Made by a program: the position numbers and the translations under genes. Below are positions 3,772-57,426 of a DNA stretch of 64,000 bases, in pieces. The notes under the pieces are model-generated. The model saw nothing but the letters and a program-made list of their open reading frames with translations. It had not been told where the DNA came from and did not search any database. Source of the stretch: Owenia fusiformis (Eukaryota > Annelida > Polychaeta > Sabellida > Oweniidae); contig CAIIXF020000005.1 in the NCBI GenBank assembly GCA_903813345.2, positions 36,645,375-36,709,374 of the forward strand, given 5' to 3'. How positions within the stretch are numbered: position 1 is the stretch's first letter; each line of letters starts with the position of its first letter.

Positions 3772-5701
3772 ATTTTTTATTTTATTTTTTTTTATTTATT
3801 AAAATCATATATACATATTTACATAATAATGATAAAGACACCCCAGGGGGTGTATGGCTTATCACAAGCTAGAACATTTTAGAATTGCATATCATTAAGT
3901 TGTAATTCTTTATAAATTGTTTTAAATTTAGGTGCATATACTCTTGAATTTACAATGTGTCATCAAAATTTAAATCAGGTAAGCCAAGCTGGTTGACAGT
4001 ATAAGTAAAATGTTTAACATGATATAGTTGAAAGATATAAAATTGATTTATGGATACCGGTGCATCTGTTTAAAGGTAGTACAGAGTACTAATCATAGAG
4101 ACTAATAACGTGTCTTTTAAAAGCACACTTTAAAATCTGAAAGGTTTTGGAATTTTTGATGTTATCTGGAGCTGAATTCCAGATTAGTGCCCCTTGAGTC
4201 TTAATGCTTCTTTTGCCATGGTTAGTTCTAAATTTGAAAATATGAAGATTGCTAGTCTGCCTTGTGTTGTAGTCATGTATGCGATGATTTGCTTGAAAAT
4301 AATTACAAAATAAATCATTAGGAAAATTGTCTGGACGGTTGATGCATTTGTAAGTAAAGGTGAGAACATTGAGTTTATAAATATCATTTATCTTAAGTAT
4401 ATTTAATGTACGGAATAGAGGTGAGGATGGTGCTTTATTATATTCACTATTAGTAGCCAAACGGACAAATGTTTTCTGTAATTTTAATAGAGTATCAATA
4501 TGTGTCTTTCCTGCCCCAACCCAAATCGGGATACAATATTGCAAGTGTGAGTAGATAAGTGAGTAATATATATTCATTAAAGATTTCATGTTGAGTTTGT
4601 GTTCAATTCGAAATAGAGTACCAATGGTTTTTGAAACTTTCAGTGCAATTTTGCGAATATGTTCTTTCCAGTTTAAATTCTGATCACCAAGGAAATTAGT
4701 TGAAAAGACACGCTTAATGTTTGAGTCTCTAATTTTGATTAAAATATCATTTGGTACCATGTTTTGAGAAGTTGTAAAAACCATAAATTTGGTTTTATCA
4801 ATATTCAATGAAAGCTTATTAGCCCGGAACCAATCATCTACAGTTTTTAGTTCATTGTTAACATTATCAACTAAAGTGTTAATATTTTTGTCAGAGCATA
4901 AAATGTTTGTGTCATCAGCAAAAATTGTATATTTGAATAAATTGCTAGTGGAGATTAGGTCATTCACATAAAGAATAAATAGTACCGGGCCTAAAATAGA
5001 GCCCTGCGGGACACCACATTGTATTGTTTTCATTCCCGAGTACTCATTGTCAAAAAAAGTAGTTTGTTTCCTGTTACTGAGATAACTTTCGAACCAGTCC
5101 AAGGATTTTCCCTGGAAGCCATAAAACTTTAATTTAGTAAGTAAAATATCATGATCAACCGTATCAAAAGCTTTGCTCAGATCCAAAAAGATTCCTAAAC
5201 TGTAATGTTTACTCTCCATCGCTTTCCTTAGATTTTCTAGGAATGTTAGACTAGCCAAGCAAGTTGATCGATTCCTTCTGAATCCGAATTGATTGACACA
5301 AAATTTTTTAAATCGTTCGATGAATTCATCAGCTCTATTATACATGACTTTCTCAAATATTTTAGAAAAAACTGATAAAAGTGATATTGGCCTGTAATTA
5401 CTAAAGTACTTTTGGTCATTCTTTTTGAAAATTGGAATAATTTTGGCTATTTTCAATTGATCTGGAAAGACACCGATCGAGAGAGATAAATTAGTCAAAT
5501 GGAGCAAAGGAGGAATGAATATATCATTTGAATTCTTAACTGTAATTGGTTTAATCTCATCATACCCTGCTGCAGAATCTTTTAACTTATCAATGATTTG
5601 TTTAACTTCATTAACGGTCACTCGTCTTAAAAATATACTTTGATTAAAAGACTCTGTCAATTTGTTTAAGTAATATATTGGAGAATGATTAGCATTTGTT
5701 A
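3772..5701 (-). mobile_element. LINE retrotransposon, 3' half (reverse transcriptase and 3' UTR)
   Basis: This is the 3' half of a minus-strand non-LTR retrotransposon. It holds the RT domain (separate entry) and about 320 bp of 3' UTR ending in an A-rich tail near 3772-3800 (minus strand AATAAAAAAAAATAAAATAA). Its 5' half is at 12423-13915 in the same orientation; the two were separated by the insertion at 5702-12422. At the junction the LINE frame reads ...ANDI on the 5' side and ITNANHS... on the 3' side, so the halves join in frame with no LINE sequence visibly lost. Confidence 0.85.
4089..5697 (-). pseudogene. LINE reverse transcriptase ORF, 3' half
   Basis: Open minus-strand frame with the ordered non-LTR RT motifs: IPIFKKND, NYRPISLLSVFSKIFEK, QFGFRRNRST, DLSKAFDTVDHDILL (motif A with the first catalytic Asp), GVPQGSILGPVLFILYVNDL (motif B), IFADDTNIL (motif C, catalytic DD) and NKLSLNIDKTKF (motif D). 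A C-terminal thumb-like region ends at 4089. The RT half looks intact, but its upstream part is cut off at 5701. Reading on upstream enters Helitron antisense sequence (DGQTDGRTDRRTD), so the present open frame is chimeric. The motif set fits the EN-containing Jockey/CR1/RTE-type LINEs; I do not assign the clade. It is not autonomous as it stands. Confidence 0.85.
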
Positions 5702-6935
5702 TCCCAACGAACAAAGTTCGGTAGGGATATAGTGAATAGTCCGTCCGTCTGTCCGTCCGTCCGTCCGTCTGTCCGTCCGGAAGATAACTCAAATTCTAGT
5801 TGACAGATTTTCTTCATATTTGGTGGAAAGATGTATATTGATGAATAGTTTTACGCAAAAAAAAATTTTTTCAAGATGGCCGCCGCTTTAAAAATGACTG
5901 GACTTTTTCGCAAAAATCATAAATTTTTCATTCTAAACCAAAGTAATTAATATTATTGTTTGAAATTTTGGTAGTATATTCGCAACATCTATCTATTTCA
6001 CATATATTCTGTGTTTTTCATCCTGACCCCCAGGGGCCGTGTATGGCAGAAATAGTAAAGCAGTAAAACAGAAATTTTCGCTAATTTTTTGATCTTTCTG
6101 AAGTATAGCTTTATTATACTCAAATGAAAGGCAATTAAGAGTAGATTGCAAATATTGTATCTTTTTTCTGATTCGAGCCTCGTAAAATTCAAAATGGCCG
6201 TCTAATGTACGATTTCGCACTAATTTTTCGATCCCTTCAAAGTATGGCTATATAATACTCAAATTGGAGGAATTTTGGAGTAGATCACAATTATGGTAAT
6301 ATTTTTCAGATTTGTACCTCAGAAAATTCAAAATGGATCTTTTCAAGATGGCCACTGCTTTAAAAATGACGGGACTTTTTCGCAAAAGTCATAAATTTTC
6401 ATTCTAAACCAAAGTAATTAATATTATTGTTTGAAATTTTGGTAGTATATTCGCAACATCTATCTATTTCACATATATTCAGTGTTTTTCATCCTGACCC
6501 CCAGGGGCCGTGTATGGGGGGTCAGGAAAACAGAAATTTTCGCTAATTTTTAGATCTTTCTGAAGTATAGCTTTATTATACTCAAATGAAAGGCAATTAA
6601 GAGTAGATTGCAAATATTGTATCTTTTTTCTGATTCGAGCCTCGTAAAATTCAAAATGGCCCTCTAATGTACGATTTCGCAATAACTTTTCGATCCCTTC
6701 AACATATGGCTATATAATACTCAAATTGAAGGAATTTTGGAGTAGATCACAATTATGGTATTATTTTTCAGATTTGTACCTCAGAAAATTCAAAATGGCT
6801 GCTTTGCAGGAATTCGCAATTCTAAAATCTAAATTTTTCAATTTTAACCAAAGTAATGAGTATAGGTGATTGGAATTCGGTAATTGATATTTTGTTCGTT
6901 GGGATTTGCTACTCCGCGGAGTTGCCATCATCTAG
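5702..6935 (+). mobile_element. Non-autonomous Helitron, copy A
   Basis: Starts TCCCAACGAAC directly after an A (5701) and ends CTAG directly before a T (6936), the A^T insertion and TC...CTRR ends of Helitrons. Ten bases before the end of CTAG lies a hairpin, CTCCGCGGAG with flanking GC.A/T.GC pairs. A (GTCC)n-type stretch follows the 5' end, and the interior contains a roughly 470-bp unit present twice (from about 5872 and 6344). No Rep/helicase frame is present. The outer 5' end sits inside the LINE. Confidence 0.75.
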
Positions 6936-7193
6936 TTTAATTATTTCTGATGGTTGTTATTCTTGAATATTTCCTAATAGACTGTAGCATTTGGAATTAA
7001 TTGACTTTTCATACCTGCGACACACCTGAGGTATGAATAATAAGTTATGGAATTACGATACATTATTGAGACTAGACATATACATGAAGCAAGTAGGTTC
7101 AAAACGTGGCAGATTACAGCAGAATAAACAGGTGGGAAGACTTCAAGAGTTGCGGCTATTCATACTTATAAGTACTGACAGTAAATACTCAGA

Positions 7194-8264
7194 ATGAATG
7201 CTACTAACATGGATATAGATTCTATAAACATGAGCATAACTGCCAAAAATACTTCAATAATGAACACCAATGTGGCAAACGTAAATGTAACCACTGACAT
7301 GAATGCTACAAACATTAACAATACAGAAATATTTCACCCGCATAATATGCCTGCAGGATTAAAGATGTGTCATTTGATTATTGAAGTGATTGTGGCTATA
7401 ATGACAGTGATACCAAATGGTGTTGTGCTGCTCAGTTACACAAAAAGCAGAGCACTGCAGGCAGAGCGCTATATTCTTCTGATGAGCTTATGCATCTGTG
7501 ACTTTCTCGTAGGTCTACTCGCCCTTCCTGTCAGCACCGTTTATCATTTCATTCCGATCAACTATGATTATATAAATGAACGCTATCTGTGCACGGCTCG
7601 CACATTCATCGTTGTTGTTTTATTAGGCGTCTCCATCTTTCACCTTGCCGTTATATCGCTGCTAAGATTCATAACAATTCAATGGCCAATGCAGCAAGCT
7701 CGATTCCTGACATCCTTTACATTGAAGGTGATCGCTGTCATTATGTGGATTCATATGACCTTCATGTGCTTCTTCATGTTTCTCGACAAATTTAACACTT
7801 GGACTCCTGATACTGGTAGCTGTCTCATATATAAAATCATTGTTCCTGGCTATTACAAGATCCTTCAGTGGCATATCATTTTGTTTATGTTTGTATGTCT
7901 CATCAGTTCCATTATGATTGGATACATTGCATGGAAACAGAGCAAGAAAATCGCTCAAGTTGTTGGTCTCTCTGATGCTAACAAGGAAAAGGCAAAAATG
8001 GAGAAGAAATATACAAAGACATTACTGTTGATTGTTGGACTCTTCTTCTTAACATACCTTCCCTTTACTATATTTAGCTCCTTTCGATTTGATATAGACT
8101 CTGTATGGCTACAAAGTTTTGGATTGTTTGTTTCCATATTTGGATTGTGCAACAGCGCAATGAATCCATGGGTCTACGCTCTACGGCATCAGACTTTCCG
8201 TCATGCCATGTTGCGTGCACTCAAGTGCCCTGGCACCACAACCAATGATTCAAATTTGAACTAG
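7194..8264 (+). CDS. Class A (rhodopsin-like) G-protein-coupled receptor, orphan (GPCR A)
   Basis: A 356-residue one-exon receptor. Residues 1-45 are an Asn/Thr-rich extracellular tail with N-glycosylation sequons (NAT, NMS, NTS, NVT, NNT). Seven hydrophobic segments follow: TM1 with PNG at 74-76, TM2 with D103, TM3 from 136, TM6 with LTYLP (286-290) and TM7 with NPWVY (324-328). C133 and C210 can form the conserved TM3-ECL2 disulfide. The DRY box is degenerate (L157-R158-F159), so coupling may be constitutive or altered. There is a short basic helix-8 region and tail. The first ATG is used; a CTTATAAG string lies about 35 bp upstream. The ligand is unknown. The gene lies between two Helitron copies inserted in a LINE, so it may be a transduplicated copy; no frame-breaking mutation is seen. 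Confidence 0.85.
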   Translation: MNATNMDIDSINMSITAKNTSIMNTNVANVNVTTDMNATNINNTEIFHPHNMPAGLKMCHLIIEVIVAIMTVIPNGVVLLSYTKSRALQAERYILLMSLCICDFLVGLLALPVSTVYHFIPINYDYINERYLCTARTFIVVVLLGVSIFHLAVISLLRFITIQWPMQQARFLTSFTLKVIAVIMWIHMTFMCFFMFLDKFNTWTPDTGSCLIYKIIVPGYYKILQWHIILFMFVCLISSIMIGYIAWKQSKKIAQVVGLSDANKEKAKMEKKYTKTLLLIVGLFFLTYLPFTIFSSFRFDIDSVWLQSFGLFVSIFGLCNSAMNPWVYALRHQTFRHAMLRALKCPGTTTNDSNLN

Positions 8265-8860
8265 ATTCACAAGATAAATGAGGAGGACATTGTGTTTTAC
8301 TTTCTACCTTATGGAAGGAGGCACTTGAGGAAGGAGATAAACAGTTATTCAACAAAGAGTGAATTTGTCTTAATAATGGTCTGTCTTAATTGATACGGCC
8401 ACAGTCAGACTCAAAATTAGACCAAAACTAATTTAAGATGATTTTCAAAAGCCTGTTTTCGAATAACAGTGTATTTATTGCCCTTTGAAAAGTTGATATT
8501 TTGCCGTTGTCTTGTTTGGACAGTGACTGTTTTATTAAATAGTGTGGTATATTGCATATGAAGTCACTGTCTTTAGGCAGAGTTTTTTCTTTTCTGATAC
8601 AAATTCCTTCTCAAGACCAAACAAATTATAAATCAAATATCAAAACAATTATTCTAAAAACAGCATGTTGTAATTAATTAAAAAAATCTTGTTGTCATGT
8701 TTCAATTAGAGTATGAATATTAGATCACTGCATGCCTGTTGTTCTGTATAATTATGATCTGAACATACCATATTGTCTCAATTATGGAGTACCGTATATG
8801 AAGAAAGATACTGAATTGTAAAATTGTCTTATGTTGTCTATCGACACTGTTCCATAACTA
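8265..8860. other. 3' flank of GPCR A, no gene seen
   Basis: AT-rich, no sizeable frame and no recognisable repeat. Confidence 0.4.
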
Positions 8861-9342
8861 GTTACTTTGATGGAACGTCAATGTAACAAAATGGATAAAC
8901 TTTCTGGATACGAGTTTTTTTTGTTTACGTATAAGTAATGTTGCGGATTATCATTTAGTAAAAAGTTAGACAATATAGTCTAGCCTTTAGAAATGCTCTC
9001 AGTTTGATAATTTGATTTTTGAATAAAGCTGTAATTCATGCATTTAGACCATCACTTTTGTTACATTGACGTAAGTCGTCAAAGTAACAGTAACATTGGT
9101 AATATAACAGTCTTTCGTCAGTGTAACAAAAGTGAGGGACTAAATATATGAATATATATGCAACTTCATTTACAAAACAAATTCCAAATCGAAGAAACCT
9201 ATTAAAACTAGACTATATTTGCTAGCTTTGTGCCAAATTATAATCTGCAGCTTGACTTATAAGTAGGTTTAAATCGAGAAAACACAAAACTTGTAAAGAG
9301 AAAGATCATCCATTTTGTTCGATGACGTTCCGTTAAAGTAAC
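8861..9342. mobile_element. Palindromic MITE-like element, ~482 bp
   Basis: Ends GTTACTTTGATGGAACGTCA and its near reverse complement GACGTTCCGTTAAAGTAAC. The arms remain complementary inward: CTAGACTATAT against its inverse around 8970 and 9210, and ACTTTTGTTACATTGACG at 9054-9071 against CGTCAGTGTAACAAAAGT at 9117-9134. No coding sequence. It would fold into one long hairpin. Confidence 0.6.
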
Positions 9343-9624
9343 GAGTTGCAGAACAGTGATCATTGTCAAATCAACGTCTATTTATTGATGTGTTAAGAAA
9401 ATATTAGAGTGACAGATATAACATAGGAGTTACACCAGAGATCATATATTATGGAATAAAAAGGAGTCAGCAATTTTCTGTAAAACAGAAATATTGCAGT
9501 GATGAAAAGAAATTGATGTGCCAGTAAGTGTGTCTGTCTATAGATACAATGTATACTAGATCATAACTGATCTAATAGAATACAATGTAATCCTTCTTTC
9601 AATTAATAACTAGTTTCCCAGATC

Positions 9625-10060
9625 ACAGTAGGTAGTTACCAGTTTCACCACCAGGTGGCTGATTCAGGTTAGGTAACATGGTAGATATAGTAGAAAGTTC
9701 CCTTAAACTTTAATATTCATCAATTTTAGTAGATCAGTTTTTCATATTACCCTTATGTATCGAACAGTTAAGCAAATGGAAATATGTCCAGTAAAAGAAA
9801 ATGTTATCTGTCCAATACTTTTTGTACTTTTATAACATGAGGTCTATGGGGAATCTACCCGATCTAGAATGTACATTTTCAGAGAAAATTAAATTTTCAA
9901 AGTCGATTAACAATTTTGAGACCACATTTTCAATTATCTGTAATTCTACATGTAGATATCAAATATGATATTACTTTCACTAACTTTTGAATATTTAATG
10001 ACATAAATCAAGATTATTTCTACTAGCGTATATAGTTGATTAAACCAACAGGGAACTCTG
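9625..10060. repeat. Dispersed repeat family S, copy 1 (carries a CTCF-like core)
   Basis: Matches 59428-59765 in direct orientation over several blocks: GTAGGTAGTTACCAGTTTCA, AAAGTTCCCTTAAACTT, GAAATATGTCCAGTAAA, GGTCTATGGGGAATCT and AAATCAAGATTATTTCTACT. Both copies lie downstream of a GPCR gene. Class unknown. Confidence 0.65.
9648..9659. promoter_or_regulatory. CTCF-core-like site CCACCAGGTGGC
   Basis: Exact match to the CCASYAGRKGGC core known for bilaterian CTCF. The same 12 bases are kept in the second copy of repeat S at 59451-59462. Binding is inferred. Confidence 0.35.
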
Positions 10061-11333
10061 ATGTTTGCCTTCACCCGAGGAGAACTGTTAATTAATTTGG
10101 ATTGCGGGAGCCTAATATGTTTATAAGATTTTATCATTCCTATATATTGTTAAGGCCTTGCTCAAAGAACATGTCCATTAAACAGACTATTGGTCCAGTT
10201 AGACTTCTTCCAAAAAACTCATTCTTCCATTTACTTTTAAAACCGATTGCAAGTTGTAGATAAACCTTTTTTCTTGAAATGTGCAATTTCAAAAAGTGGC
10301 ATTAGTTTTTAGATTCTTTAAAAAATTGGCAGTAAGAACCCCTATCACAAGACTGTCTGAATATGGGTACACACTATGTTCACCATCAAAATAATATCAA
10401 AACTTATCATTTTATAGTATTTATTATATTGAACATATAGCATACAAACATTCGGAGTAGAAAAAAATCCAGCTATGTATGAAGTTTACTAATGCAAATC
10501 TGAAAAACATTGACATTTTTGTTCATTTTATCATCAAGTTTAAGCATCATGCTCATTCCCTTTCATTGAAAATTTAACCATCAGCCCAAACTCCCACAAA
10601 AAAGATATTGAAATTGTATAATGCAGAGACTGTGAAATAGCTTCCCTGCAAATATCATTGTTGTGGGAGCATGGGCTCACCACTAAAACTTAAATTTTGT
10701 GATGAAAATAAGGCTGACTGGTTTATGTTTTCAATATGGCTGCTAACCTTGGCATACATGATTGTGCACTACATAACTGCAAGTACAGATTGGGCCATTC
10801 AAAATTGATTATATGTTGGCATTCTGATGAAGGGCCTTGCATTAATAACTACAAAACCTTTATTTTTTAAAGGGTTTTATATATTATTTAATAGTGAAAA
10901 TGCAATATGGGAAGGCACGTAACTTACCTCTTGATTCAGATGACCTTGTTAATGAAGACAATACCGAAGATTATATACACATAGTTTTTAATCAATCTTT
11001 ACTCATTTCACTACAATATAATCCAAGATCAGAATTCCCTTTGTCATTTATATGCATTACAAGTACAGAGTACATGGGATTATTTTGTTTTTTTCTGAAA
11101 ACAGAATTTAGTGACATTAACTATAAAAACATCTTTGAATGGCCTAAGTGTTTTTCTAAAAGGGTATAAGTAGAGAATTTTAAGCAATCCTTTGAGTGTC
11201 ATGCCATTTATACATGATGCTGCCTTATATTTTATATTGAAAGAGGATTTCTCTGAATTATTTGTGTTTCAAATATGGGTACTGCAATTGGCAAATAACT
11301 TTGAAATTAAGTGTCCATACAGACATTTAATTA
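10061..11333. other. Intergenic DNA, no gene seen
   Basis: AT-rich, no coding-quality frame. The 91-codon open frame at 10894-11169 has no recognisable family or codon character. Confidence 0.4.
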
Positions 11334-12422
11334 TCCCAACGAATGAAGTTCGGTAGGGATATAGTGAAGCCCTCCGTCCGTCCGTCAGTCAGTCCGTCCG
11401 TCCGGAAGATAACTCAAATATTAGTTGACGGATTTTCTTCATATTTGGTGGAAAGATGTATATTGATGAATAGTTTTACGCAAAAATTTTTTTTCAAGAT
11501 GGCCGCCGCTTTAAAAATGACGGGACTTTTTCGTAAAAATCATAAAGTTTTCATTCTAAACCAAAGTAATTAATATTATTGTTTGAAATTTTGGTAGTAT
11601 ATTCGCAACATCTATCTATTTCACATATATTCTGTGTTTTTCATCCTGACCCCCAGGGGCCGCTAATTTTTAGATCTTTCTGAAGTATAGCTTTATTATA
11701 CTCAAATGAAAGGCAGTTAAGAGCAGATTGCAAATATTGTATCTTTCTGATTCGAGCCTCGTAAAATTCAAAATGGCCGTCTAATGTACGATTTCGCAAT
11801 AATTTTTTGATCCCTTCAAAGTATGGCAATATAATACTCAAATTGAAGGAATTTTGGAGAAGATCACAATTATGGTATTATTTGTCAGATTTGTACCTCA
11901 GAAAATTCAAAATTGATTTTTTCAAGATGGCTGCCGCTTTAAAAATGACGGGACTTTTTCGCAAAAATCATAAATTTTTCATTCTAAACCAAAGTAATTA
12001 ATATTATTGTTTGAAATGTTGGTAGTGTATTCGCAACATCTATCTATTTCACATATATTCCATGTTGTTCATCCTGACCCAGTTAAGAGTAGATTGCAAA
12101 TATTGTATCTTTTTTCTGATTCGAGCCTCGTAAAATTCAAAATGGCCCTCTAATGTACGATTTCGCAATAACTTTTTGATCCCTTCAACATATGGCTACA
12201 TAATACTCAAATTGAAGGAATTTTGGAGTAGATCACAATACACTGTATTATTTTTCAGATTTGTACCTCAGAAAATTCAAAATGGCTGCTTTGCAGGAAT
12301 TCGCAATTCTAAAATCTAAATTTTTCAATTTTAACCAAAGTAATGAGTATAATTGATTGGAATTCGGTTATTGATATTTTGTTCGTTGGGATTTGCTACT
12401 CCGCGGAGTTGCCATTATCTAG
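11334..12422 (+). mobile_element. Non-autonomous Helitron, copy B
   Basis: Begins TCCCAACGAA after A (11333) and ends CTAG before T (12423), with the same CTCCGCGGAG hairpin before the end. It is closely alike copy A but lacks some internal blocks. Its 3' end forms the right outer border of the composite block, joined directly to the 5' half of the LINE. Confidence 0.75.
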
Positions 12423-13915
12423 TTATATCATTTGCAAGAGTGGGACCTATTTCAGTAAAATAATCATTAAAAAGATTAGCGATTTGTTAATGATCTTTGA
12501 TTAGCTTATTAATATGGATAAACTGCTTGTCTATCATTTTTGATCGTTTTCCTCTATTAAGAATTTCATTTATATTTTTCCATGTTTCTTTAAGATTACC
12601 TGAACAACTGTTGAACTTGTTTTTGTAGTAAAATCGTTCAGAGTTTCGTATTACTTGTCTTAAAATGCGTTTAAAGGTTTTATATTCATTGATTTTCGTT
12701 AAAGTTGGATGTTTAATAGATTTCATATAGAATTTGTTTTTTTGCTTAATTGATGTAATTATACCTTTAGTTAGCCATGGTTTTTTATTGTTAAATCTGT
12801 ATGTCATATTTCTATGCATATATGGGAAACATTCATTATAAATTGTCTTAATCTTCTGAATAAATAGATCATACTCAATGTTCACATCAGTACAATTTAA
12901 TACATTATCAAAATAAATTTTTGTTATTTTTGTCTTAAAATCATCATGGTTTTGTTTTTCATTAAACGAAAAAGAACTTTTTCTGTGATTTGTAAATCAG
13001 CGGGCAGATCTGCTACTGCAAAAATAGGAAAATGATCTGAAATGTCAGTCATTATAATTCCTGATTTGTTGATATTTAATGAATTTGTGAAAATGTTATC
13101 TATAAGAGTGGCTGTTCTTGATGTTACTCGAGTAGGTCTATAAATGATAGGGTAAAGATTAAAGAAATACAAAGTGTTCAAAAAATGTTCTGTTCCAGCA
13201 TGATCTGTGTTCAGTAATTGATATTGAAGTCCCCCATAAGAAAAATATCTTTATTTTCCTTTGAAAGTTTTCCTAAAAATTGGCTTAATTCGTGATTAAA
13301 TACTTCAAGATCAACATCAGGAGGTTTGTAAACAACTGTAACCAAGATATTTCTATCATATTCCTTATTAATTTCAATAGTTATTGCCTGCATATCAAAA
13401 TCATTTCTTATAATTAGATCATCTCTAGTTTCATATACAATATTATTCTTGATATAAATGCCAACTCCACCACCTGTTCTTGTGGTTCTAGAAATAAATT
13501 CAGAGTTAAATCCGAGTATGTTGTAATCTGATTCATTGCTCTCTTTAAGCCAAGTTTCAGTAACACCAAATATGTCAAAGTGATTATTGGTCAAAACATT
13601 TAAATTTATAACTTTTGAAAAATTATGAGGCAAGCTCCTCACATTTGCACACCCAATAACCATATCATTTTGTTTCCTAGAATTCAAATTAGAATTTACA
13701 GTTTCAGGGAATTGGTATTTACAAGAATTCATTAACTTTTGGGTATGAATATCCAATAATGTGATTTCATTATCATTTGGATTTGAACCAATCGCATTAT
13801 CAGTTCTGGGGTCAAAGAGTAGATTCTCAAAATGATGTTCCTCCAAATAGTCATCTAAGTGGAGAAAAAAAGGCAGATGCACCATAAGATTTATATCATT
13901 TTCAGCCATTGTCAA
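12423..13915 (-). pseudogene. LINE 5' half: endonuclease domain and linker (frameshifted)
   Basis: From 13915 leftward on the minus strand: an apurinic-type (EEP) endonuclease with NVRSL (catalytic Asn), TETWLKES (catalytic Glu), VVYKPP, GDFNIN (Asp/Asn pair) and ISDHFPIF (the SDH motif). The linker to the RT follows (KPWLTKGI, KTFKRILRQVIRNSERFYY, NDYFTEIGPTLAND). The frame is broken near 13205, around 12900, and by a TAA at 12486-12484. So this is a decayed copy, older than or as old as the insertion that split it. The RT continues at 5701. The 5' UTR boundary above 13915 is not visible. Confidence 0.8.
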
Positions 13916-31500: not shown

Positions 31501-34187
31501 GCATATGGAGTCAGAAATTAATGTTTCTACTGTAAACCTTTTCAATTTTCAAAGAATGTGCTTCACATACAGTGTTTACGTTTCAATCTGGGCCAGCTGC
31601 TTTTTCAGCATGTATGCTAGAAAAAACTTAAAAACTGGTCTGTATTTAAATATTGAAATCACACATTGTACATTGTGCAATTTTTCAATTACAATTACAA
31701 TTACCTGTTTCCCAATCCCATTAATGCACATTAATTATTTGCCACATGCTCCTTGATGAAGGCATTTAATTCACCATTAAATAACATAAATATGACATTG
31801 ATTATCACAATTAATATGCATTGTCAGGATTAAAAATATCATCGCACACAATGTTTTGTAATTTCTACTCGAAATTCCGATGCAACTAAGCCTTTTCAAA
31901 GTATTGTTGTACAATTCTGGAAATAGATAAACACATTATTACGCGTAAACATTCTACTGAAAGCAATAGGAATGAATTGCAAACTGTATAAATAACAAGG
32001 AATTTATTCCCATGAATAAAATGACATGCTTTAAATCATAAAACTGTGGAAAAAATGTTGTTTGTAATATAAAAAGGAACAGTCATGAGGATAATGAGAT
32101 AATATGTTATGCACTATTTATAGATTGTCACATTTTCTCTAGTAGACAGAGAGGAAGTATGTAGAAAATGCGTGACCAAAATGTGCCATTGTGTTTACAT
32201 TTTGCTGAGTTAATAATATTTGCTTACTGGTTGGTGGTGATGTTTGCTTTTGATGTCTCTTCTATTTATTTACTGTATTTGTTGTTTTTATGTTAGAGTT
32301 ATTTATTTTTATGAAACAGGTGTTTTAGATGTACAGTAATTACTTTTGTTGAGTATCACCAACTCTAATCCAATTGTAATATCCCTTTGAATTGTAATGC
32401 TTTATTTAGCTCCATCTTGGCTTAACTTTCTATTCATCCTTCAATTTGTAATCTCTCTTGAATACCAACTGAAGAAACATGTCGTCGTTAACACGTCATA
32501 GTTAATCTGCACTTTTATATTTCAGGGAAGCAAAGGCGTGGGTGTAAACAAACAATACCCAAGCTTAGGGATAAATCCACAAATTCGGGAAACCTATCGC
32601 CAGGTTATCAAATCAAGCATATCAAACTTGACGACAAAATCACCACCCAAGGCCAAGGATGGTACATCTGTTAAAGACGCTCCTGAAGTAAAGGACAAAA
32701 AGGGTGCTGAACAAACAACTGGTACTCCTGAAATAATTGACTTGACTTATGATTCATCAACCCCATCACCAAAAGCTGGTATTAGCAAGAAGATACCTAC
32801 CCCCTCGAGATTAATGCAGCTTAAAAAGACATCCCAAATGCATGGAACATTATCGTGGAAACAAGCGATGAAATATCGCGCCTCCTCACATAATAAGATC
32901 CAAGGGCCTTCAGTGTTGAAGAATACAACAAGCGCAGGACACAAGTATAAAATAATCAGGGGTTTGAAATCAGTTCACCCGCAGAAAGCTCAATCTGTAA
33001 ATCCTGGTGTCAGCACTAGCTCAGTTACTGGTAAAACTAAACCAGCATATAATGCTGGTCCTTCAGTGGATGTAAAACAACTATTTGGATCACCAAAAGT
33101 TGATCTAGGTGCTCCGATTCCATCTGGAGCAAAATCAGTGAAACTTGACAAGTTTTTTGTTAAAGATGGCACAACAATGTCTCAAAGGTCACTAGATATA
33201 ATCCCATTTAAGAAAATTGCCAAATCTGCCGAAAGCGCTGTCAAATCCCCTACCTTCTCTAGCCAAACTAATCGACCCCAAATAAAGCCTACAACTGTAA
33301 CCTCATCTCACAAATCGAACATCAAATCCCCGACCTTCCCTGGTGTGAAACCTCATATAAAATCAGGGCAAGTTTCCAAACCGCCACAAGGTAATGTAAA
33401 ATCACCAATCTTCCAAAGTCAGTATGTCAGACCAAATTCTGCAACAACTGTAAAATCTCCAATATTTCCTGGTCAACCTAAGCCTCAAATGAAGCCAAAA
33501 TCAACAGATGGTTCGATCGTTGGAAGGTCATCAACCATTGGTACTCATAAACCTAATGTCTCACCCCAGAGTGGAACTATGAAACCTCAAAGTGGCACCA
33601 TGAGACCTCAAGGTGGTACTGTGAAACCCCAATGTGGCACTATGAAACCCCAAAGTGGCACCATGAAACCCCAAAGTGGGAATATAAAATCCCAGGGTGG
33701 CACTGTGAGACCACAAAGTGGCACCATGAAACCCCAAAGTGGTACCATGAAATCCCATAGTGGTACTTTGAAACCCCAAGGTGGCTCCAGTAACCCTATT
33801 ACTTCACCACAGCCACTTTACATTGGACCTGTACCATCCAAAAGTAGTGCACCAATCACAAAAGATCTTCCTGAGTTTGCAAGAAATCTCCCGGCTTTCA
33901 AACCAAAGATTCACCAAGAGAAACCCAATCTGCCAAGCCCAAATGCTCCTCACAAGAATAGCCACCAAAGTGTCACTCAGACATCAAAACTACAGAAAGC
34001 TACAACTACAAAAACTTCTGGCCAATCAGCTACAACTACAAAAATTTCTGGCCAATCAGCTACAACTACAAAAACCTCTGGCCAATCAGCTACAACTACA
34101 AAAACCTCTGGCCAATCTAAACCTGAAGGGTTTTCAATTTTAGTACAGGCAAAATCTCCAGACATCATCCTCTTGGATTCTGATTAA
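17409..34187 (+). CDS. CABIN1: CABIN1 homologue, C-terminal 792 residues in seven exons (5' part not seen)
   Basis: Joined exons 17409-17522, 18159-18322, 18667-18800, 24013-24122, 24698-24772, 25256-25375 and 32526-34187 total 2379 nt, in frame to a TAA. The peptide contains GIWRIPIEEVDRPGSF, KYLRDADR, EAYKVWQ and EEQPSILEQATRYC. These match, in order, vertebrate CABIN1 GIWRIPVDEIDRPGSF, KYLRDADR, DAYRVWQQ and DEEAALEQAVKFC (recalled, not searched). CABIN1 is a nuclear TPR scaffold that restrains calcineurin and MEF2 and, with HIRA, UBN1 and ASF1a, deposits histone H3.3. The TPR half must lie upstream. If the gene is intact, the ankyrin gene, the LINE and GPCR A could lie in one of its introns, or the 5' end has been lost. 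Confidence 0.8.
17879..18060. mobile_element. Short palindromic MITE, 182 bp
   Basis: Ends TGCCACCTTTTGG and CCAAAAGGTGGCA. The inner arms also pair (ATTGGCTAGAT...GATGTCATTG against CAATGACATCACCAATCTAGCCAAT). It lies in a CABIN1 intron. Confidence 0.6.
18159..18322 (+). CDS. CABIN1: CABIN1-like exon 2 of 7
   Basis: 164 nt, acceptor TTTTAG, donor GTGAGC, ends in phase 2. Encodes GIWRIPIEEVDRPGSF, HLNRCIVLLLDVLRDI and LNRVPDSQ. This is the best-conserved stretch and the main basis of the CABIN1 call. Confidence 0.85.
18667..18800 (+). CDS. CABIN1: CABIN1-like exon 3 of 7
   Basis: 134 nt, acceptor TTTTGTAG, donor GTGAGT. Enters in phase 2 and leaves one base (G). Encodes RKYLRDADRLHLAKMAF and ERIQKFIL. 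The G completes a Glu codon with the AG that starts exon 4. Confidence 0.8.
18801..22197. other. CABIN1 intron, mostly featureless
   Basis: AT-rich. A short repeated phrase, GTGACATCTTTTAATTGGAAG with the string AAGGCAACCAG, appears around 18975-19030, 20280-20330 and 20350-20380. A 59-nt candidate exon at 20733-20791 was rejected on phase. Nothing else is recognisable. Confidence 0.4.
22200..22778. mobile_element. MITE with ~28-bp terminal inverted repeats and TA target duplication
   Basis: Ends CAGGGTGTCCCTAAAGTACA and, inverted, CAGGGTGTCCCAAAAGTATG, flanked by TA on both sides (22198-22199, 22779-22780). This is the Tc1/mariner-type pattern. No transposase is encoded. Confidence 0.75.
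22838..24062 (+). repeat. Twelve-copy, 100-bp tandem array of a CABIN1 acceptor plus exon start
   Basis: Units repeat at exactly 100 bp (motif at 23001, 23101 ... 24001); the first unit carries about 9 extra bases. Each contains CCATTGCAG then AGGCCTATAAGGT.TGGCAA, which is the acceptor and first codons (AYKVWQ) of exon 4. In copies 1-11 the frame ends at ATATGA, or at TAG where GGTCTAGC occurs. Only copy 12 runs into the full exon. Confidence 0.9.
24013..24122 (+). CDS. CABIN1: CABIN1-like exon 4 of 7
   Basis: 110 nt, acceptor CCATTGCAG, donor GTATTT after AAACAG. With the preceding G it encodes EAYKVWQHSSKQSIVR through YSACRSKQ, in line with CABIN1 DAYRVWQQ...KQ. An earlier donor (ATA then GTGAGA at 24052) is possible and would also stay in frame, shortening the exon to 41 nt. 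Confidence 0.65.
24158..24245 (+). repeat. TA-flanked repeat end (CAGTAAAACC type), left piece
   Basis: TACAGTAAAACCTGTATATC then tandem GAACACCT/GAACACTTC phrases. The inverse end, GATTTTACTGTA, is at 25194-25205 after the same GAACACTTC phrases. CAGTAAAACC ends are typical of pogo/Tigger-like elements. A similar end opens the element at 27569. Confidence 0.4.
24698..24772 (+). CDS. CABIN1: CABIN1-like exon 5 of 7
   Basis: 75 nt, phase 0 to 0, acceptor TTTATTTCAG, donor GTATGT. Encodes LEEQPSILEQATRYCIQHSH, matching CABIN1 DEEAALEQAVKFCQVH. Confidence 0.75.
24777..25090 (+). repeat. Imperfect minisatellite (GATTATGGTCATACACT type)
   Basis: A roughly 110-bp unit of GATTATGGTC/GTTATGGTCC/CATGATCC phrases, repeated with decay, begins almost at the exon 5 donor. 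Confidence 0.6.
25100..25205 (-). repeat. TA-flanked repeat end (CAGTAAAA type), right piece
   Basis: Contains GAACACCTTTTAATGTGAACACTTC and ends GATTTTACTGTA. It is the inverse partner of 24158-24245. The two pieces may bound one element that encloses CABIN1 exon 5, or be two separate insertions. Confidence 0.35.
25256..25375 (+). CDS. CABIN1: CABIN1-like exon 6 of 7
   Basis: 120 nt, phase 0 to 0, acceptor TTTTTCAG, donor GTAGGA. Encodes a Ser/Thr/Pro-rich linker (THSSGPNSTPSTPGSVTSP, then QKLVASPKAG), presumably disordered and with several Ser-Pro sites. Identification rests on frame and position only. Confidence 0.6.
25548..25695. repeat. Three ~57-bp tandem units
   Basis: TTTCATATTATTTTACATAA and TGTTAAATACTG are repeated three times with small changes, in a CABIN1 intron. 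An (AAAC)n tract follows at about 25872-25897. Confidence 0.6.
26039..26448 (+). mobile_element. Short Helitron, copy D
   Basis: Starts TCCCATCGAACGAA after A and ends CTGG before T, an allowed CTRR variant. The hairpin ACGC-TTTG-GCGT lies just before the end. 410 bp, with a (GTCC)n head and the GATGGGATTCGCTACGC phrase. Confidence 0.65.
26619..27032 (+). mobile_element. Terminal-hairpin element G, copy 1
   Basis: Begins AGCTCACATGGTTAGCTTTT (near-palindrome) followed by GCAATCACTCACTTG and (GTCC)n. Ends GTGAGCCCA then GTACC-CAT-GGTAC. No coding frame. Same family as 28491-29442. Confidence 0.55.
27569..28338. mobile_element. TA-flanked element inserted in Helitron C
   Basis: Helitron sequence ATATTGTATCTTTTT is split into ATATTGTA and TATCTTTTT around the insertion, duplicating TA. 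The left end CAGTAAAACC with GAACAGGGAATGCT has an inverted, slightly internal partner (AAAACCTATGAACAAGGAAT read inverted). The phrase GGTTTTCCCTACAGAGAGG occurs twice near the right end. Confidence 0.6.
28491..29442 (+). mobile_element. Terminal-hairpin element G, copy 2, inserted in Helitron C
   Basis: Starts with the perfect inverted repeat AGCTCAC-ATG-GTGAGCT and ends GTACC-CAC-GGTAC. Compared with copy 1 only the loop bases differ at the right end. Itself interrupted by 28630-29043. Confidence 0.55.
28630..29043. mobile_element. TTAA-flanked palindromic MITE (piggyBac type)
   Basis: Ends GGTCAGGGTG and CACCCTGGCC with arms complementary over about 190 bases. Flanked by TTAA on both sides (28626-28629, 29044-29047). 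An uninterrupted relative of the site (ATTTTACTTAACATCGATTT at about 29297) shows a single TTAA, as expected for a true insertion. Confidence 0.8.
29606..32525. other. CABIN1 intron (last part), mostly featureless
   Basis: Apart from Helitron relic F, AT-rich and without a coding frame of quality or clear repeat. Confidence 0.4.
30290..30749 (+). mobile_element. Decayed Helitron, copy F
   Basis: Ends GCTACTCCGTGAAGTTGCC, GATTTCTAG, then T. It keeps the family's AAGATGGCCACC and AAAATTCAAAATGGCTGCC phrases. The 5' end is not clear. Confidence 0.5.
32526..34187 (+). CDS. CABIN1: CABIN1-like terminal exon (exon 7)
   Basis: 1662 nt, acceptor ATTTCAG, phase 0, 553 residues then TAA. Low-complexity and basic. 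It has EIIDLTYD (about residue 67) and IILLDSD at the very C-terminus, both shaped like SUMO-interacting motifs with acidic tails. Five (V/I)KSP(T/I)F boxes, possible proline-directed phosphosites, lie between about residues 240 and 315. About 11-12 tandem 7-residue units (PQSGTMK type) and four 10-residue units (ATTTKTSGQS) follow. The vertebrate MEF2-binding C-terminus is not recognisable. The exon probably encodes a disordered tethering tail. Confidence 0.75.
   Translation, partial: GSKGVGVNKQYPSLGINPQIRETYRQVIKSSISNLTTKSPPKAKDGTSVKDAPEVKDKKGAEQTTGTPEIIDLTYDSSTPSPKAGISKKIPTPSRLMQLKKTSQMHGTLSWKQAMKYRASSHNKIQGPSVLKNTTSAGHKYKIIRGLKSVHPQKAQSVNPGVSTSSVTGKTKPAYNAGPSVDVKQLFGSPKVDLGAPIPSGAKSVKLDKFFVKDGTTMSQRSLDIIPFKKIAKSAESAVKSPTFSSQTNRPQIKPTTVTSSHKSNIKSPTFPGVKPHIKSGQVSKPPQGNVKSPIFQSQYVRPNSATTVKSPIFPGQPKPQMKPKSTDGSIVGRSSTIGTHKPNVSPQSGTMKPQSGTMRPQGGTVKPQCGTMKPQSGTMKPQSGNIKSQGGTVRPQSGTMKPQSGTMKSHSGTLKPQGGSSNPITSPQPLYIGPVPSKSSAPITKDLPEFARNLPAFKPKIHQEKPNLPSPNAPHKNSHQSVTQTSKLQKATTTKTSGQSATTTKISGQSATTTKTSGQSATTTKTSGQSKPEGFSILVQAKSPDIILLDSD
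33565..33785 (+). repeat. 21-bp coding tandem repeat in the CABIN1-like tail
   Basis: About eleven units of CCTCAAAGTGGCACCATGAAA type, encoding PQSGTMK with variants (PQGGTVR, SQGGTVR, SHSGTLK). Units are in frame. Confidence 0.85.
33997..34117 (+). repeat. 30-bp coding tandem repeat in the CABIN1-like tail
   Basis: Four in-frame copies of GCTACAACTACAAAAACTTC plus TGGCCAATCA, encoding ATTTKTSGQS (one copy with Ile). Confidence 0.85.
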
Positions 34188-39299: not shown

Positions 39300-39498
39300 T
39301 AGGGATTACTTTCGAAACATATCGATTATCAATCTATCGGACATTAGGTTCCAAAATTGGAAATGAAATTTTGTGAATCAAGATATCGGATCTCTTTCTA
39401 AAGTGCATTATGTGTTAAATCATTCACCATCCCATATTTTAAATGAGAAAACAAAACCTAAAATATATAGAATTTCATTTTCAGTGGCAGAAACAACC

Positions 39499-41160
39499 AT
39501 GGCCGTATTGGGAGAATTATTCCGACTGGCAAGTCTGTTCGCCATCCTATGTATTTTTGAGAATGAATCGTCAACTGAAACTACAAGCACTGATGAGACG
39601 TCATCCCCAACGGAGCATGATGGTGATATAACCATATATTCAAGAGATGATGATAATCCTTGGAACGGCACAACGACCAGCCTAAATGGGGATGCTCCAA
39701 CAACTGAAAATCCAAAAGCTGGTACAATAACCAGTGTAAATAGGGACATTCCAACATCAGATAATCCCAAAGTTGGCACAGTTGCTAACATAACTGATGA
39801 TCGTACAAATGGCACAGTGGCCGACATAAATGAAGAAACAACCACTAACCCTTTAAACCAAACTGTTGTCTCTTCGGTAAACACAACTGTTACATCTAAC
39901 ATTGACAATGTCTCGAAGGCAGACGAGGATATAAATAACGCCAACTTGACTTATAACGCAAGAGCAGCTGGAAATGAAACATTTACTTCTGAACCAAGAA
40001 CAGACAATGAATCAGTTAATGAAGCCGAATGTAGACCTTACTATTGTTGCGACCCTTTCCTTTCTGACCGCGATCGTCATACTTTTATGAAAAAACACGA
40101 GGCCCAAGTTAACGTGATTATGTATTTCTGGATAAGTCTTTTCCTCTGTTTAGGCGGCCTGGTGGGCAACATTCTCTCTTTCATTGTCCTATACAGGCAA
40201 AAGATCAACACAAGTGTTTTCTTTCTGAAGTGTTTGGCAGTTAGTGATGGTCTTTATATGCTATGGTATCTAGTTTTTGATTTGTACTACACAGCCTATA
40301 GTGGAACACAATGGATAACGAACAGAAATGAAGATAGTGTCCATGTAATTCCTGCAAAAAAGACATACCTTAGTTTTGTCAATGCTACACTCACTCTTCT
40401 ATCATCATGGTTAGTGGTATTGCTTACTGTAGATCGCTTCATTATTGTTCGCATGCCCTTAATGGCAAATAGTCTTTGCACTTTGAACAAGGCTCGAGTA
40501 GAAGCATTTGTTTTGTTTGTATGTTGCGTTGGCTTTTGTTTGCCTATACTTTGGCAGTATACATCGTCAATTGAACTTCATCCATGTTGGGACTATCTTA
40601 TTATGTACAAAGATCCTACTCCATCATTTGGAGGTACTTATGGTACTCTTTTTGTGTATGACGTTGTTCTTAGTGGATTGATAAAGAATCTTATTCCAGT
40701 TTTGATTGTTTTCATTATGAATGTTCTGCTCATTGTTGGTCTCATGAAAGCCAGTGCAAGACGAAGGAAACTTGTTACTAATGGGAAAGAGGCACAGAAA
40801 AGAGATGAGAATATAAGTTTGATGTTGATCACAGTTGCAGTTTTATATCTGATCCTCCTCTTACCAAGTCTTGGCCTGAAGATCCTGAGATGTCTCTGGA
40901 TGGTGAAGACATATCTCGAGGTCGATTTAAATATAGATGATAAATATTTTGATTCGATAACCTTCTATGCTATGGTTAGTGATTTGCTAATTCGTGTTAA
41001 CTCTGCCATCAATTTCATTATCTATGTTCTTGTAAGCAAGAAATTTCGCGATGGTTTGATGAAGTTGATATGCTGCAAGAGAGTCAGTAAAACTGAGGTT
41101 TATAAAACATCTGTAACAAGAACGACATCATTTGGAAAAGCCAAAAAAGGAGAGACATAG
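39499..41160 (+). CDS. Class A peptide-type GPCR with long extracellular N-terminus (GPCR B)
   Basis: 553 residues from the ATG at 39499. I chose it because it follows a splice acceptor (TTTTCAG at 39484) and begins a signal-peptide-like stretch (MAVLGELFRLASLFAILCIF). Residues about 22-175 are Ser/Thr/Asn/Asp-rich with many N-glycosylation sequons. A Cys cluster (ECRPYYCCDPFLS) precedes TM1. TM1 has GLVGNILSF, TM2 LAVSDGLYMLWY, TM3 ends TVDRFIIVRMP (DRF at 312-314), and TM7 is NSAINFIIYVL with NFIIY in place of NPxxY. The closest general type is the FMRFamide/neuropeptide receptor group of protostomes; the ligand is unknown. It is paralogous to the genes at 46392 and 57427. Confidence 0.85.
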   Translation: MAVLGELFRLASLFAILCIFENESSTETTSTDETSSPTEHDGDITIYSRDDDNPWNGTTTSLNGDAPTTENPKAGTITSVNRDIPTSDNPKVGTVANITDDRTNGTVADINEETTTNPLNQTVVSSVNTTVTSNIDNVSKADEDINNANLTYNARAAGNETFTSEPRTDNESVNEAECRPYYCCDPFLSDRDRHTFMKKHEAQVNVIMYFWISLFLCLGGLVGNILSFIVLYRQKINTSVFFLKCLAVSDGLYMLWYLVFDLYYTAYSGTQWITNRNEDSVHVIPAKKTYLSFVNATLTLLSSWLVVLLTVDRFIIVRMPLMANSLCTLNKARVEAFVLFVCCVGFCLPILWQYTSSIELHPCWDYLIMYKDPTPSFGGTYGTLFVYDVVLSGLIKNLIPVLIVFIMNVLLIVGLMKASARRRKLVTNGKEAQKRDENISLMLITVAVLYLILLLPSLGLKILRCLWMVKTYLEVDLNIDDKYFDSITFYAMVSDLLIRVNSAINFIIYVLVSKKFRDGLMKLICCKRVSKTEVYKTSVTRTTSFGKAKKGET

Positions 41161-46182: not shown

Positions 46183-46380
46183 AACAGAAGACAAAACATT
46201 TCGAGCATCTTCAACTTAGTAACATTGAAACGTAAGTGTATTTACTTTGCATATTCAAGATATAAGGAATTAATTGGGAAAGATCAACAAACTAATTCAA
46301 GTATAACAGCGCATGTAACCTATTAATAATTGTGAGTAAAACAGTTTATATTTCATATAGCTTTCTTGAATTTTTTCCAG
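46183..46380 (+). other. Non-coding first exon and 149-bp intron of GPCR C
   Basis: Predicted exon about 46183-46231 ends GAAAC before GTAAGT (46232). The intron ends TTGAATTTTTTCCAG at 46380. The coding exon starts 11 bases before the ATG. The same acceptor-before-ATG layout is seen in GPCR B and GPCR D. Confidence 0.5.
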
Positions 46381-46391
46381 TACCAACAGTC

Positions 46392-47969
46392 ATGTCAATC
46401 TTGAGGGTGTCCATGCGACTGGTAGTTATATTTGTCATTCTATGCATTCTTGGGAATCAATCGTCTACTGAAACTTCAAGCGCTGATGAAAAAACTCCTC
46501 CTGTTGACCAAACTAGTGATGCAAACAAAAATATTAGAGATGAGAATAATTCTACTGATGGCACAACGGTCAACACAAACGGTAAAGTTACTCAAACTGG
46601 TGAACCAATGGGCCATAGTGATACTTCTTTAACTGAGGCATCTGTTACATCTCATATTGACAATGTGTCTAAGACTTTTACCGGTGCCGATAGAAATATT
46701 AACAACAACAACAACAGAACCAAAAACACAGCTTCAACTGGAAGTGGAAATGACAAAGCCAAATTTAAACGTGATGCTCAAAATGATCAGGGTTCACAGG
46801 AAGAATGTCAGCCTTATTACTGTTGTGAGCCATACCTTTCCAACCACGACCGTCACACGTTGATGAAAAAAGACGAAACTCTAGTGAACATGATCACATA
46901 TTTTTGGATTAGCATTTTCCTCTGTTTAGGTGGCCTGGTGGGCAACATTCTCTCTTTCATTGTCTTGTACAGGCAAAAGGTCAACACAAGCGTTTTCTTT
47001 CTGAAGTGTCTGGCAGTTAGTGATGGTCTCTATATGCTATGGTATCTGGTATTTGATCTATACTACACGGCTTATGATTCTTCGCCATGGGTAACGAACA
47101 GGGAAGATCCCAGTGCGCATGTTATCCCAGCGAATTACATTTACACAAACTTAGGAAATACAACATTGACTTTATACTCGTCATGGTTAGTAGTATTGCT
47201 TACTGTAGATCGTTTCATTATCGTTCGCATGCCCTTAATGGCAAATAGTCTTTGCACTTTGAACAAGGCTCGAGTAGAGGCATTTGTTTTGTTTGTATGT
47301 TGCGTTGGCTTTTGTTTGCCTATACTTTGGCAGTATACATCGTCAATTGAACTTCATCCATGTTGGGACTATCTTATAATGTACAAAGATCCTACTCCAT
47401 TTGGACGTACATTTGGCACTGTTTTTATGTATAACGTGGTTCTCACTGGCTTACTAAGGAGTCTCATCCCAGTGGTCATGGTCTTTATTATGAACATTCT
47501 CCTTGTCATTGGTCTTGTGAAAGCTGGTAAAAGGAGACGGCAACTTGTTAGCAATGTCGGCAAAGAGGATCAAAAGAGAGATGAAACTATAAGTCTGATG
47601 TTGATTACGGTTGCAACTTTATATGTAGTCCTCCTTTTACCAAGGCTTGGTCTTTATGTCCTAAGAAGTCTTTGGATGGCGCAGAAATATCTCGACGTCA
47701 ATTTGAATATAAGCAGTGCGGCGTTAACGTCCATTGCCTACTATGCTCCAATTAGCGATTTGTCAGTGCGGGTCAACTGCGCTATTAATTTCATTATTTA
47801 CGTTCTCGTGAGTAAGAAATTCCGTGATGGTTTGAAAGAGTTGGTTTGTTGCCGGAATTCCGGCACATCTGAGTCTTCTAAAATGACTTCTACAAAAACT
47901 TTATCATCAATTAAAAGTTCGAGTGCTCGGGCCAGTGATAAGATTGCAGAAAATGTAGTTGATAAATAA
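46392..47969 (+). CDS. Class A peptide-type GPCR, paralogue of GPCR B (GPCR C)
   Basis: 525 residues from the ATG at 46392, the first ATG after the splice acceptor and the start of a signal-peptide-like stretch (SMRLVVIFVILCIL). Ser/Thr/Asn-rich N-terminus with a poly-Asn run, then EECQPYYCCEPYLS before TM1. TM1 GLVGNILSF, TM2 LAVSDGLYMLWY, DRF at 273-275, TM6 without the usual CWxP (VLLLPRLG), TM7 NCAINFIIYVL, and a Ser/Thr-rich tail. Very close to GPCR B in the transmembrane part, with a 220-bp stretch differing only silently. The N- and C-terminal parts have diverged. An AATAAA lies at 48379-48384. Ligand unknown. Confidence 0.85.
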   Translation: MSILRVSMRLVVIFVILCILGNQSSTETSSADEKTPPVDQTSDANKNIRDENNSTDGTTVNTNGKVTQTGEPMGHSDTSLTEASVTSHIDNVSKTFTGADRNINNNNNRTKNTASTGSGNDKAKFKRDAQNDQGSQEECQPYYCCEPYLSNHDRHTLMKKDETLVNMITYFWISIFLCLGGLVGNILSFIVLYRQKVNTSVFFLKCLAVSDGLYMLWYLVFDLYYTAYDSSPWVTNREDPSAHVIPANYIYTNLGNTTLTLYSSWLVVLLTVDRFIIVRMPLMANSLCTLNKARVEAFVLFVCCVGFCLPILWQYTSSIELHPCWDYLIMYKDPTPFGRTFGTVFMYNVVLTGLLRSLIPVVMVFIMNILLVIGLVKAGKRRRQLVSNVGKEDQKRDETISLMLITVATLYVVLLLPRLGLYVLRSLWMAQKYLDVNLNISSAALTSIAYYAPISDLSVRVNCAINFIIYVLVSKKFRDGLKELVCCRNSGTSESSKMTSTKTLSSIKSSSARASDKIAENVVDK

Positions 47970-49689: not shown

Positions 49690-50405
49690 GTAAAAAGAAT
49701 AAAATTCATATCACATCACACCACACCACATTACATTACAACACATCACACCAGACACCACCATATCACATCAACTTACATTACATTTGATACATCACAT
49801 CATCACCACATTACACAACACCACACCACATCTCACCACATCACATCACATCAAATTGCATTACATCACATCACACGAAACCACATCATATTACATCAAA
49901 TTACATTACATCACATCACATCAAATTACATTACATCACATCACACCACATCACATCAAATTACATTACATTACATCACACCAAATCATATCAAATCAAA
50001 TTACATTACATCACACCACATCACATCAAATTACATTACATTACATCACACCACATCACATCAAATTACATTACATTACATTACATCACTCCACATCACA
50101 TCACATCAAATTATATTACATTACATCACATCACACCATATCACGTCATATCACATCACATCACATCAAATTACATTACATCACATCACATCAAATTACA
50201 TTACATCACATCACACCACATCACATCAAATTACATTACATTACATCACACCAAATCATATCAAATCAAATTACATTACATCACACCACATCACATCAAA
50301 TTACATTACATTACATTACATCACTCCACATCACATCACATCAAATTATATTACATTACATCACATCACACCATATCACGTCATATCACATCACATCACA
50401 TAACA
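49690..50405 (+). repeat. CATCA/CATTA satellite with 235-bp higher-order repeat
   Basis: Almost pure pentamers CATCA, CATTA, CACCA. The segment with ATCACTCCACATCACAT followed by CACCATATCACGTC occurs twice, 235 bp apart (from about 50086 and 50321). The resulting long open frame is low-complexity and not a gene. Confidence 0.85.
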
Positions 50406-50470
50406 TATTTCCCTCTGTCATTATTTATAGGATATTCTATGAGGAGGACAAGTTAGACTTTGAAGACGTA

Positions 50471-57400: not shown

Positions 57401-57426
57401 AGGTTCAAGAAGAAATCTCCTCTACA

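Follow-up and report, generated by a model that had tools for sequence, protein, structure and literature searches.

Rolling-circle transposable elements are usually described as carriers of gene fragments. The described systems closest to the case reported here are the HINEs, a family of non-autonomous Helentrons; among their traits, the structural sections of PMC4067079 list subterminal inverted repeats, a 5' inverted repeat, a microsatellite, central repeats and, some 8-35 nt short of the terminus, a 3' palindrome, together with a T-rich target in which two or more T lie on either side and which insertion leaves unchanged. Other passages of the same paper (PMC4067079) put the subterminal inverted repeats of mite HINE families at 38-60 bp from the end, cite a title that gives GTCY as a trait of DINE-1-like elements, and record that end bypass or composite transposition has been proposed for gene duplications beside HINEs. 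For Helraiser, the part of PMC4778049 that deals with transduction reports that flanking DNA is carried in about 11.7% of events. Here we examine a locus of the annelid Owenia fusiformis in which two HINEs enclose an intact gene for a G protein-coupled receptor, Receptor A, within one copy of a long interspersed nuclear element (LINE), and we argue that this block was probably formed by a composite rolling-circle transposition that began at the first HINE's 5' end, ran past the 3' end of that element and finished at the 3' end of the second.

The locus lies in a 64,000-nucleotide stretch of DNA (hereafter the window), C5:36645375-36709374 of a 498-Mb, 525-contig genome assembly (G000). The genome was searched with 12 queries; sequence searches scored the best candidates only, so that the counts given below are lower bounds and absences are limited to the candidates scored.

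A composite block interrupts a single LINE copy

An earlier account drawn from the letters alone (the sequence-only reading) divided the block at 5702-6935, 6936-11333 and 11334-12422, and these edges hold. The features of the locus, in window coordinates, are:

3772-5701, minus strand: split LINE, 3' part (reverse transcriptase); the outer limit of 3772 is that of the sequence-only reading
5702-6935, plus strand: HINE 1, non-coding; 5' terminus uncertain by up to 3 bases, owing to TTA at 5699-5701
6936-10162, plus strand: sequence originating from the pair of C12 receptors, into which a foldback was later inserted; matches to C12 and C7
7194-8264, plus strand: Receptor A, an intact rhodopsin-type receptor of 356 aa in a single open exon (PF00001)
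8841-9360, no strand assigned: foldback (inverted-repeat) element with inverted arms, not in C12_2
10163-11333, plus strand: dispersed repeat, left part, cut by HINE 2; the right part is missing from the window
11334-12422, plus strand: HINE 2, non-coding, with LINE directly after it
12423-13915, minus strand: split LINE, 5' part (endonuclease, PF03372)

Both LINE parts carry the expected coding domains, PF00078 in the 3' part (E 2.5e-37, on a 567-aa frame at 4089-5792) and PF03372 in the 5' part (E 5.9e-12). When the two flanks were joined into a single empty-site query of 578 bases, the genome search returned 40 matches (40 of 41 candidates scored), two of which were the window's own halves. 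Eleven of the others (L008-L018) are uninterrupted LINE copies that run across the 5701|12423 joint at 83-87% identity and lack the block, and six further matches cover both sides of the joint, one at 86% over 442 bases and five at 65-71%. The left half alone is 77.7-87.4% identical to 11 other copies.

The relationship between the two halves was assessed from trees built separately for each side. The same copy, L011, is sister to the window LINE in the left trees (support 0.984 for 500 bases and 0.999 for 750 bases; 12 sequences each) and in the right trees (support 1.000 for both 500 and 650 bases; 8 and 7 sequences, copies covering less than 80% of the stretch having been dropped). Because L011 is the closest relative on both sides, the halves share one origin, and the possibility that they come from different copies, which was looked for as an outcome that would refute the sequence-only reading, is rejected. 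The break at 5701|12423 divides a single old LINE copy, which belongs to an old lineage next to a cluster of near-identical copies. A second LINE on C10 that seemed to be broken at the same place was rejected, the sequence after its break being unrelated.

The sequence-only reading also held that the LINE reads in frame across the block. The frame does run on over the joint, but a stop codon lies in it about 21 codons before that point, and there is one codon too many. Compared with all 11 aligned copies, the joined window LINE has three surplus bases, one TTA in excess, reading GTTA|TTATATC where the uninterrupted copy L018 reads GTTATAT. Since these bases are extra relative to 11 of 11 copies, the LINE does not account for the A that precedes TCCC, and this A is not plain host sequence.

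The flanking elements are HINEs

HINE 1 and HINE 2 differ in length and are 95.7% identical over 1079 aligned bases. Each has a perfect 12-bp palindrome, ACTCCGCGGAGT, 13 nt from the 3' terminus, and has an exact subterminal inverted repeat (15 bp in HINE 1, 11 bp in HINE 2) 30 nt from the 3' end. Both also contain a GTCY microsatellite, at about 5740-5779 in HINE 1, and internal repeats, spaced 369-471 bp apart. A CTAG terminus with a palindrome 13 nt inside it agrees with the rule for canonical Helitrons (CTRR, palindrome about 11 nt inside), and HINEs fit it as well, so that this feature is not decisive.

Exact searches recovered 416 5' ends of the family genome-wide, with a pattern that requires TT plus A or T two places before the TT, and 223 3' ends. 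A recognisable pair of ends was present in 28 of 38 sequences, HINE 1 and HINE 2 counted in and the other 10 left out; TT precedes the 5' end in all 28, TT follows the 3' end in 24, and ATT precedes the 5' end in 27, the exception being HINE 1 in the LINE. At the 100 listed of the 416 5' ends, the base before TT is A in 84, G in 10, T in 6 and C in none. The LINE target shows no target-site change relative to 11 of 11 copies, and its TT can be assigned to element or host alike. The boundary A|TC...CTAG|T proposed earlier is wrong in detail: the site is TT, and insertion between A and T in the manner of canonical Helitrons is ruled out by the three surplus bases, which make that A extra to all 11 LINE copies. 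With a TT target, subterminal inverted repeats, a GTCY microsatellite and a 3' palindrome, the family is HINE, that is, a non-autonomous Helentron. The sequence-only reading was thus right in counting two related copies and mistaken in classing them as Helitrons.

Full-length copies elsewhere in the genome are 95-97% identical to HINE 1 or HINE 2, and the two elements lie 2.3% and 2.9%, respectively, from a consensus of 12 copies. The protein domain Helitron_like_N has 58 matches in the genome, 57 of them above the cut-off, many in open frames of 2000-3377 aa (for example on C515, C13, C505, C3 and C5). These matches often fall on small contigs and may represent intact autonomous rolling-circle elements. 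One such locus, C2:32.58 Mb, was considered as an autonomous partner and rejected, as only separate HINEs lie near it and it has no matching ends of its own. A HINE pair at C5:39801841-39803795 (L050), considered as a second composite, reflects local tandem duplication of a unit with about 200 bases of flank.

With both edges lying in a repeat of about 1.1-1.2 kb, from a family with at least 416 exact 5' ends, it is conceivable that the assembler placed a receptor contig between HINE copies. We regard such a join as very improbable. It would need two false joins in a window that contains no N, the two HINEs differ by about 4% and in length, so that long reads should separate them, and the best match to the receptor segment elsewhere is partial and 91% identical, so that a native place for the segment is not seen.

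Receptor A is a recombinant of a tandem receptor pair

Receptor A is a protein of 356 aa with a strong match to PF00001 (E 2.6e-31). By sequence, the solved structures that come nearest are those of trace-amine and other amine receptors (best E 5.6e-19), at a distance that does not allow a ligand to be named. When the genome was searched with the protein, 114 of 563 candidates were scored and 113 matches obtained, from which a small family stands out: eight genes, including that of the window, exceed 65% identity to Receptor A, and the next best reach 30-31%. The seven relatives of Receptor A are:

C12:15957448-15961087: tandem pair (C12_1 and C12_2)
C7:4195977-4213901: four genes
C8:17137211-17138236: one gene

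One of the C7 genes, at 4207551-4208575, is divided between two frames and is possibly broken. The two C12 proteins are 92% and 88% identical to Receptor A, and the DNA of the segment matches C12 at 6930-8679 (85%), 7013-8840 (91%), 9361-9595 (79%) and 9580-10166 (87%), and C7 from 6933. The likeness to C12 and C7 therefore extends well beyond the gene, to 10166.

In a coding tree of seven of the eight family genes, the split C7 copy being left out, Receptor A is sister to C12_2 (support 0.991). The informative sites are more complex than this placement suggests. Sites like C12_1 against sites like C12_2 number 36:1 at 6936-7035, a count affected by a deletion in C12_2, then 34:0 at 7036-7193, 15:5 at 7194-7374, a mixed 8:13 at 7375-7735, and 3:59 at 7736-8264. 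Of 103 coding sites, 88 are consistent with one break, placed between 7430 and 7472, a fit equalled by none of 2000 shuffles; the first 500 bp or so match C12_1 and the remainder C12_2. Receptor A is a recombinant of the tandem C12 pair, a point that the sequence-only reading had not foreseen. Because its informative sites switch from C12_1 to C12_2, the unit at the donor had most likely itself been formed by recombination within that pair.

The 4.4 kb between the HINEs had been described as holding an intact one-exon receptor. The receptor is as described, and the remainder is not all host DNA, as it includes a dispersed repeat and a foldback. The foldback, at about 8841-9360, has inverted arms and the ends CACTGTTC and GAACAGTG, and C12_2 is contiguous over its site. 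The dispersed repeat begins near 10163 and occurs in at least 36 other places in the genome; its left end is common to 10 of 10 fetched copies, the flanks of which differ. Both elements are absent from C12_2 at the matching places.

The description of the receptor as apparently undamaged holds for its reading frame and for that alone. Over the body of the protein (codons 80-355), synonymous (dS) and nonsynonymous (dN) divergence from C12_2 are 0.058 and 0.022, a ratio of about 0.38 that constitutes a weak test, and the whole-frame dN/dS against C12_2 of 0.553 is inflated by the recombinant 5' part. With all three outgroups in agreement, the Receptor A branch can be assigned no more than two changes, one synonymous and one nonsynonymous, so selection on Receptor A is not demonstrated. 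The gene was carried with only about 260 bp of upstream sequence, so its native promoter may be missing.

Expected donor flanks are missing at the HINE termini

At the left inner edge HINE 1 terminates as CTAG|TTTAATTATTTC. The native C12_1 and C7_a sequences read ...TTTAGTTTTATTATTTC at this point and then continue upstream; C12_2 likewise extends upstream, but carries a deletion just inside the edge. At the right inner edge, 9 of 10 fetched copies of the dispersed repeat continue past 11332 as ...AATT|TCA..., and the tenth, L026, has a small deletion at this site, yet enters the right half too. In the window HINE 2 starts at the break in the repeat, LINE sequence follows, and the right half of the repeat is missing. 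Because C12 and C7 read on upstream and the repeat lacks its right half, neither of the outer flanks that a donor should have is present, and the loss falls exactly at the HINE ends on either side. The captured DNA is bounded by the 5' end of HINE 1 and the 3' end of the downstream HINE 2, and there is no target duplication.

The left inner edge also bears on a template-switching origin. Under this scenario a HINE already present in the LINE would have primed synthesis from its 3' end, perhaps at a transposase nick; the synthesis would have jumped via TAGTT(T) to the receptor locus, copied receptor and repeat into HINE 2, and returned by HINE homology. C12_1 and C7_a indeed carry TTTAGTTT at precisely the point where HINE 1 (ATCTAGTT) ends, and no donor HINE insertion at G-TT, a context seen in 10 of 100 listed 5' ends, would be needed. 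Two switches would be required, however, one of them exactly at a transposon terminus, and TT is expected at any HINE edge, which leaves TAG as the only informative microhomology. We consider this origin quite unlikely.

Proposed composite transposition and its alternatives

In the composite transposition that we favour, HINE 1 would have stood 5' of the recombinant receptor unit at a donor locus descended from the pair on C12, and HINE 2 would have inserted downstream, inside the dispersed repeat. A Helentron-type Rep/helicase supplied in trans would have started at the 5' end of HINE 1, passed its 3' palindrome without stopping, continued across the receptor and ended at the 3' terminus of HINE 2; the resulting 6.7-kb strand would then have entered, at TT, the LINE of C5. 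A donor copy is not found in the assembly and may belong to a haplotype that has been lost or lies outside the sample. Given two ordinary HINE insertions at the donor, a single movement accounts for the outer edges and for the missing flanks, and the locus is most simply explained by bypass of the 3' end of the first element. Such bypass has a precedent in Helraiser, and Helitron_like_N domains are present in the genome in open frames of up to 3377 aa. The distances of HINE 1 and HINE 2 from their consensus are of the same order as the dS between the bodies of Receptor A and C12_2, and the elements are young. Of the earlier proposal that the receptor moved by Helitron 3' bypass, the exact transposon ends in one LINE copy and the complete gene with non-genic flanks from another chromosome are retained, and the canonical Helitron class is given up.

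Several findings weigh against this history. Exact patterns for the donor or an excision scar gave no match in the assembly. A joint of the HINE 3' end with the right half of the repeat was followed for more than 13 bases by none of the best 40 of 1148 candidates, and a joint of C12_1 upstream sequence with the HINE 5' end for more than about 12 bases by none of the best 40 of 2281. Ten HINE matches do extend 3-13 bases past the former joint; retrieval of the two longest, at C6:25289358 and C12:8837845, showed that neither is a donor scar. The receptor segment was likewise sought as a second composite, and none occurs among 40 scored candidates; neither a donor locus with flanking elements nor a set of several composite copies emerged from these best-candidate searches. 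An autonomous partner with matching ends was not found (one Helitron_like_N locus was examined), and there are no exact head-to-tail HINE pairs within 30 bases, so that bypass is not obviously frequent in the family. TAGTT(T) is common to the HINE 1/receptor joint and the native upstream sequence, and G precedes TT at both HINE 1 sites, in the LINE and in the native paralogs, compared with 10 of 100 listed 5' ends. Finally, divergence is greater in the outer than in the inner halves of the two HINEs, which leans weakly towards recombination.

Under non-allelic homologous recombination, a single HINE would already have resided in the LINE, and HINEs flanking the receptor at the donor would have recombined to release a circle that then crossed over into the resident HINE. 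Recombination is reportedly the favoured mechanism for DINE-1-associated gene duplicates in Drosophila. It would account for the edges and for the lost donor, and the high identity among full-length HINEs would provide substrates; DINE-1 repeats have moreover been linked with Drosophila gene duplicates, as cited in PMC4067079. Differences from the consensus number 37 in the outer against 22 in the inner halves (split at 615), or 36 against 23 with 20 copies, as an older resident would show, but this excess is weak, as it lies within the spread of other single copies, whose differences sum to 214 against 223 for the two halves. Recombination also needs a third HINE insertion and two recombination events, for circle and integration, and its expected scar (receptor upstream sequence, HINE and right half of the repeat) was not found in the two joint searches. 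We judge it unlikely. The competing explanations differ in what they predict for the other allele, either a LINE that is empty or one that holds a single HINE, and resequencing can tell them apart.

The whole history, taken as two steps, is a tentative proposal to which we give somewhat less than an even chance: recombination within the tandem pair on C12 would have produced a chimeric receptor, and a two-HINE composite would have carried it to C5 with about 260 bp of upstream sequence and its frame still open, where it may be in use.

Other reading frames in the window

Three long open frames on the plus strand, at 39373-41160, 46332-47969 and 57397-59262, encode seven-transmembrane domains (Srw-type PF10324, and PF00001) together with long N-terminal stretches and belong to a receptor family other than that of Receptor A. 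A plus-strand frame at 49787-50485 consists of a short repeated unit rich in His, Ile, Thr and Ser and is probably simple sequence. Another, of 549 aa at 32538-34187 (plus strand), has internal repeats of the QSGTMKP type and no Pfam match at E 0.001.

Comparison with known systems

A literature search for Helitron-captured G protein-coupled receptors returned nothing with more than three mentions of Helitrons, a result that we do not extend to print at large. As far as the transduction section of PMC4778049 goes, the locus resembles Helraiser and Helibat read-through, in which bypass of the 3' hairpin takes downstream DNA to a new site; it differs in that those are canonical Helitrons with de novo 3' ends, whereas here the 3' end of a second element is used. 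It resembles the DINE-1-associated gene duplicates of Drosophila, as cited in PMC4067079, in that non-autonomous rolling-circle repeats lie beside duplicated genes. The closest likeness, within the features set out in the structural sections of Thomas, Vadnagara and Pritham 2014 (PMC4067079), is to the HINE / DINE-1 elements of Helentrons, which share the structural traits and the T-rich target; the 3' inverted repeat lies 30 nt from the end here, compared with about 38-60 in the mite families of that paper. While this kind of event has already been proposed for HINEs in that paper (PMC4067079), what the present locus adds, relative to the cases outlined there, is a single instance in which the carried gene is complete, its source family is resolved and the edges are matched by empty sites.

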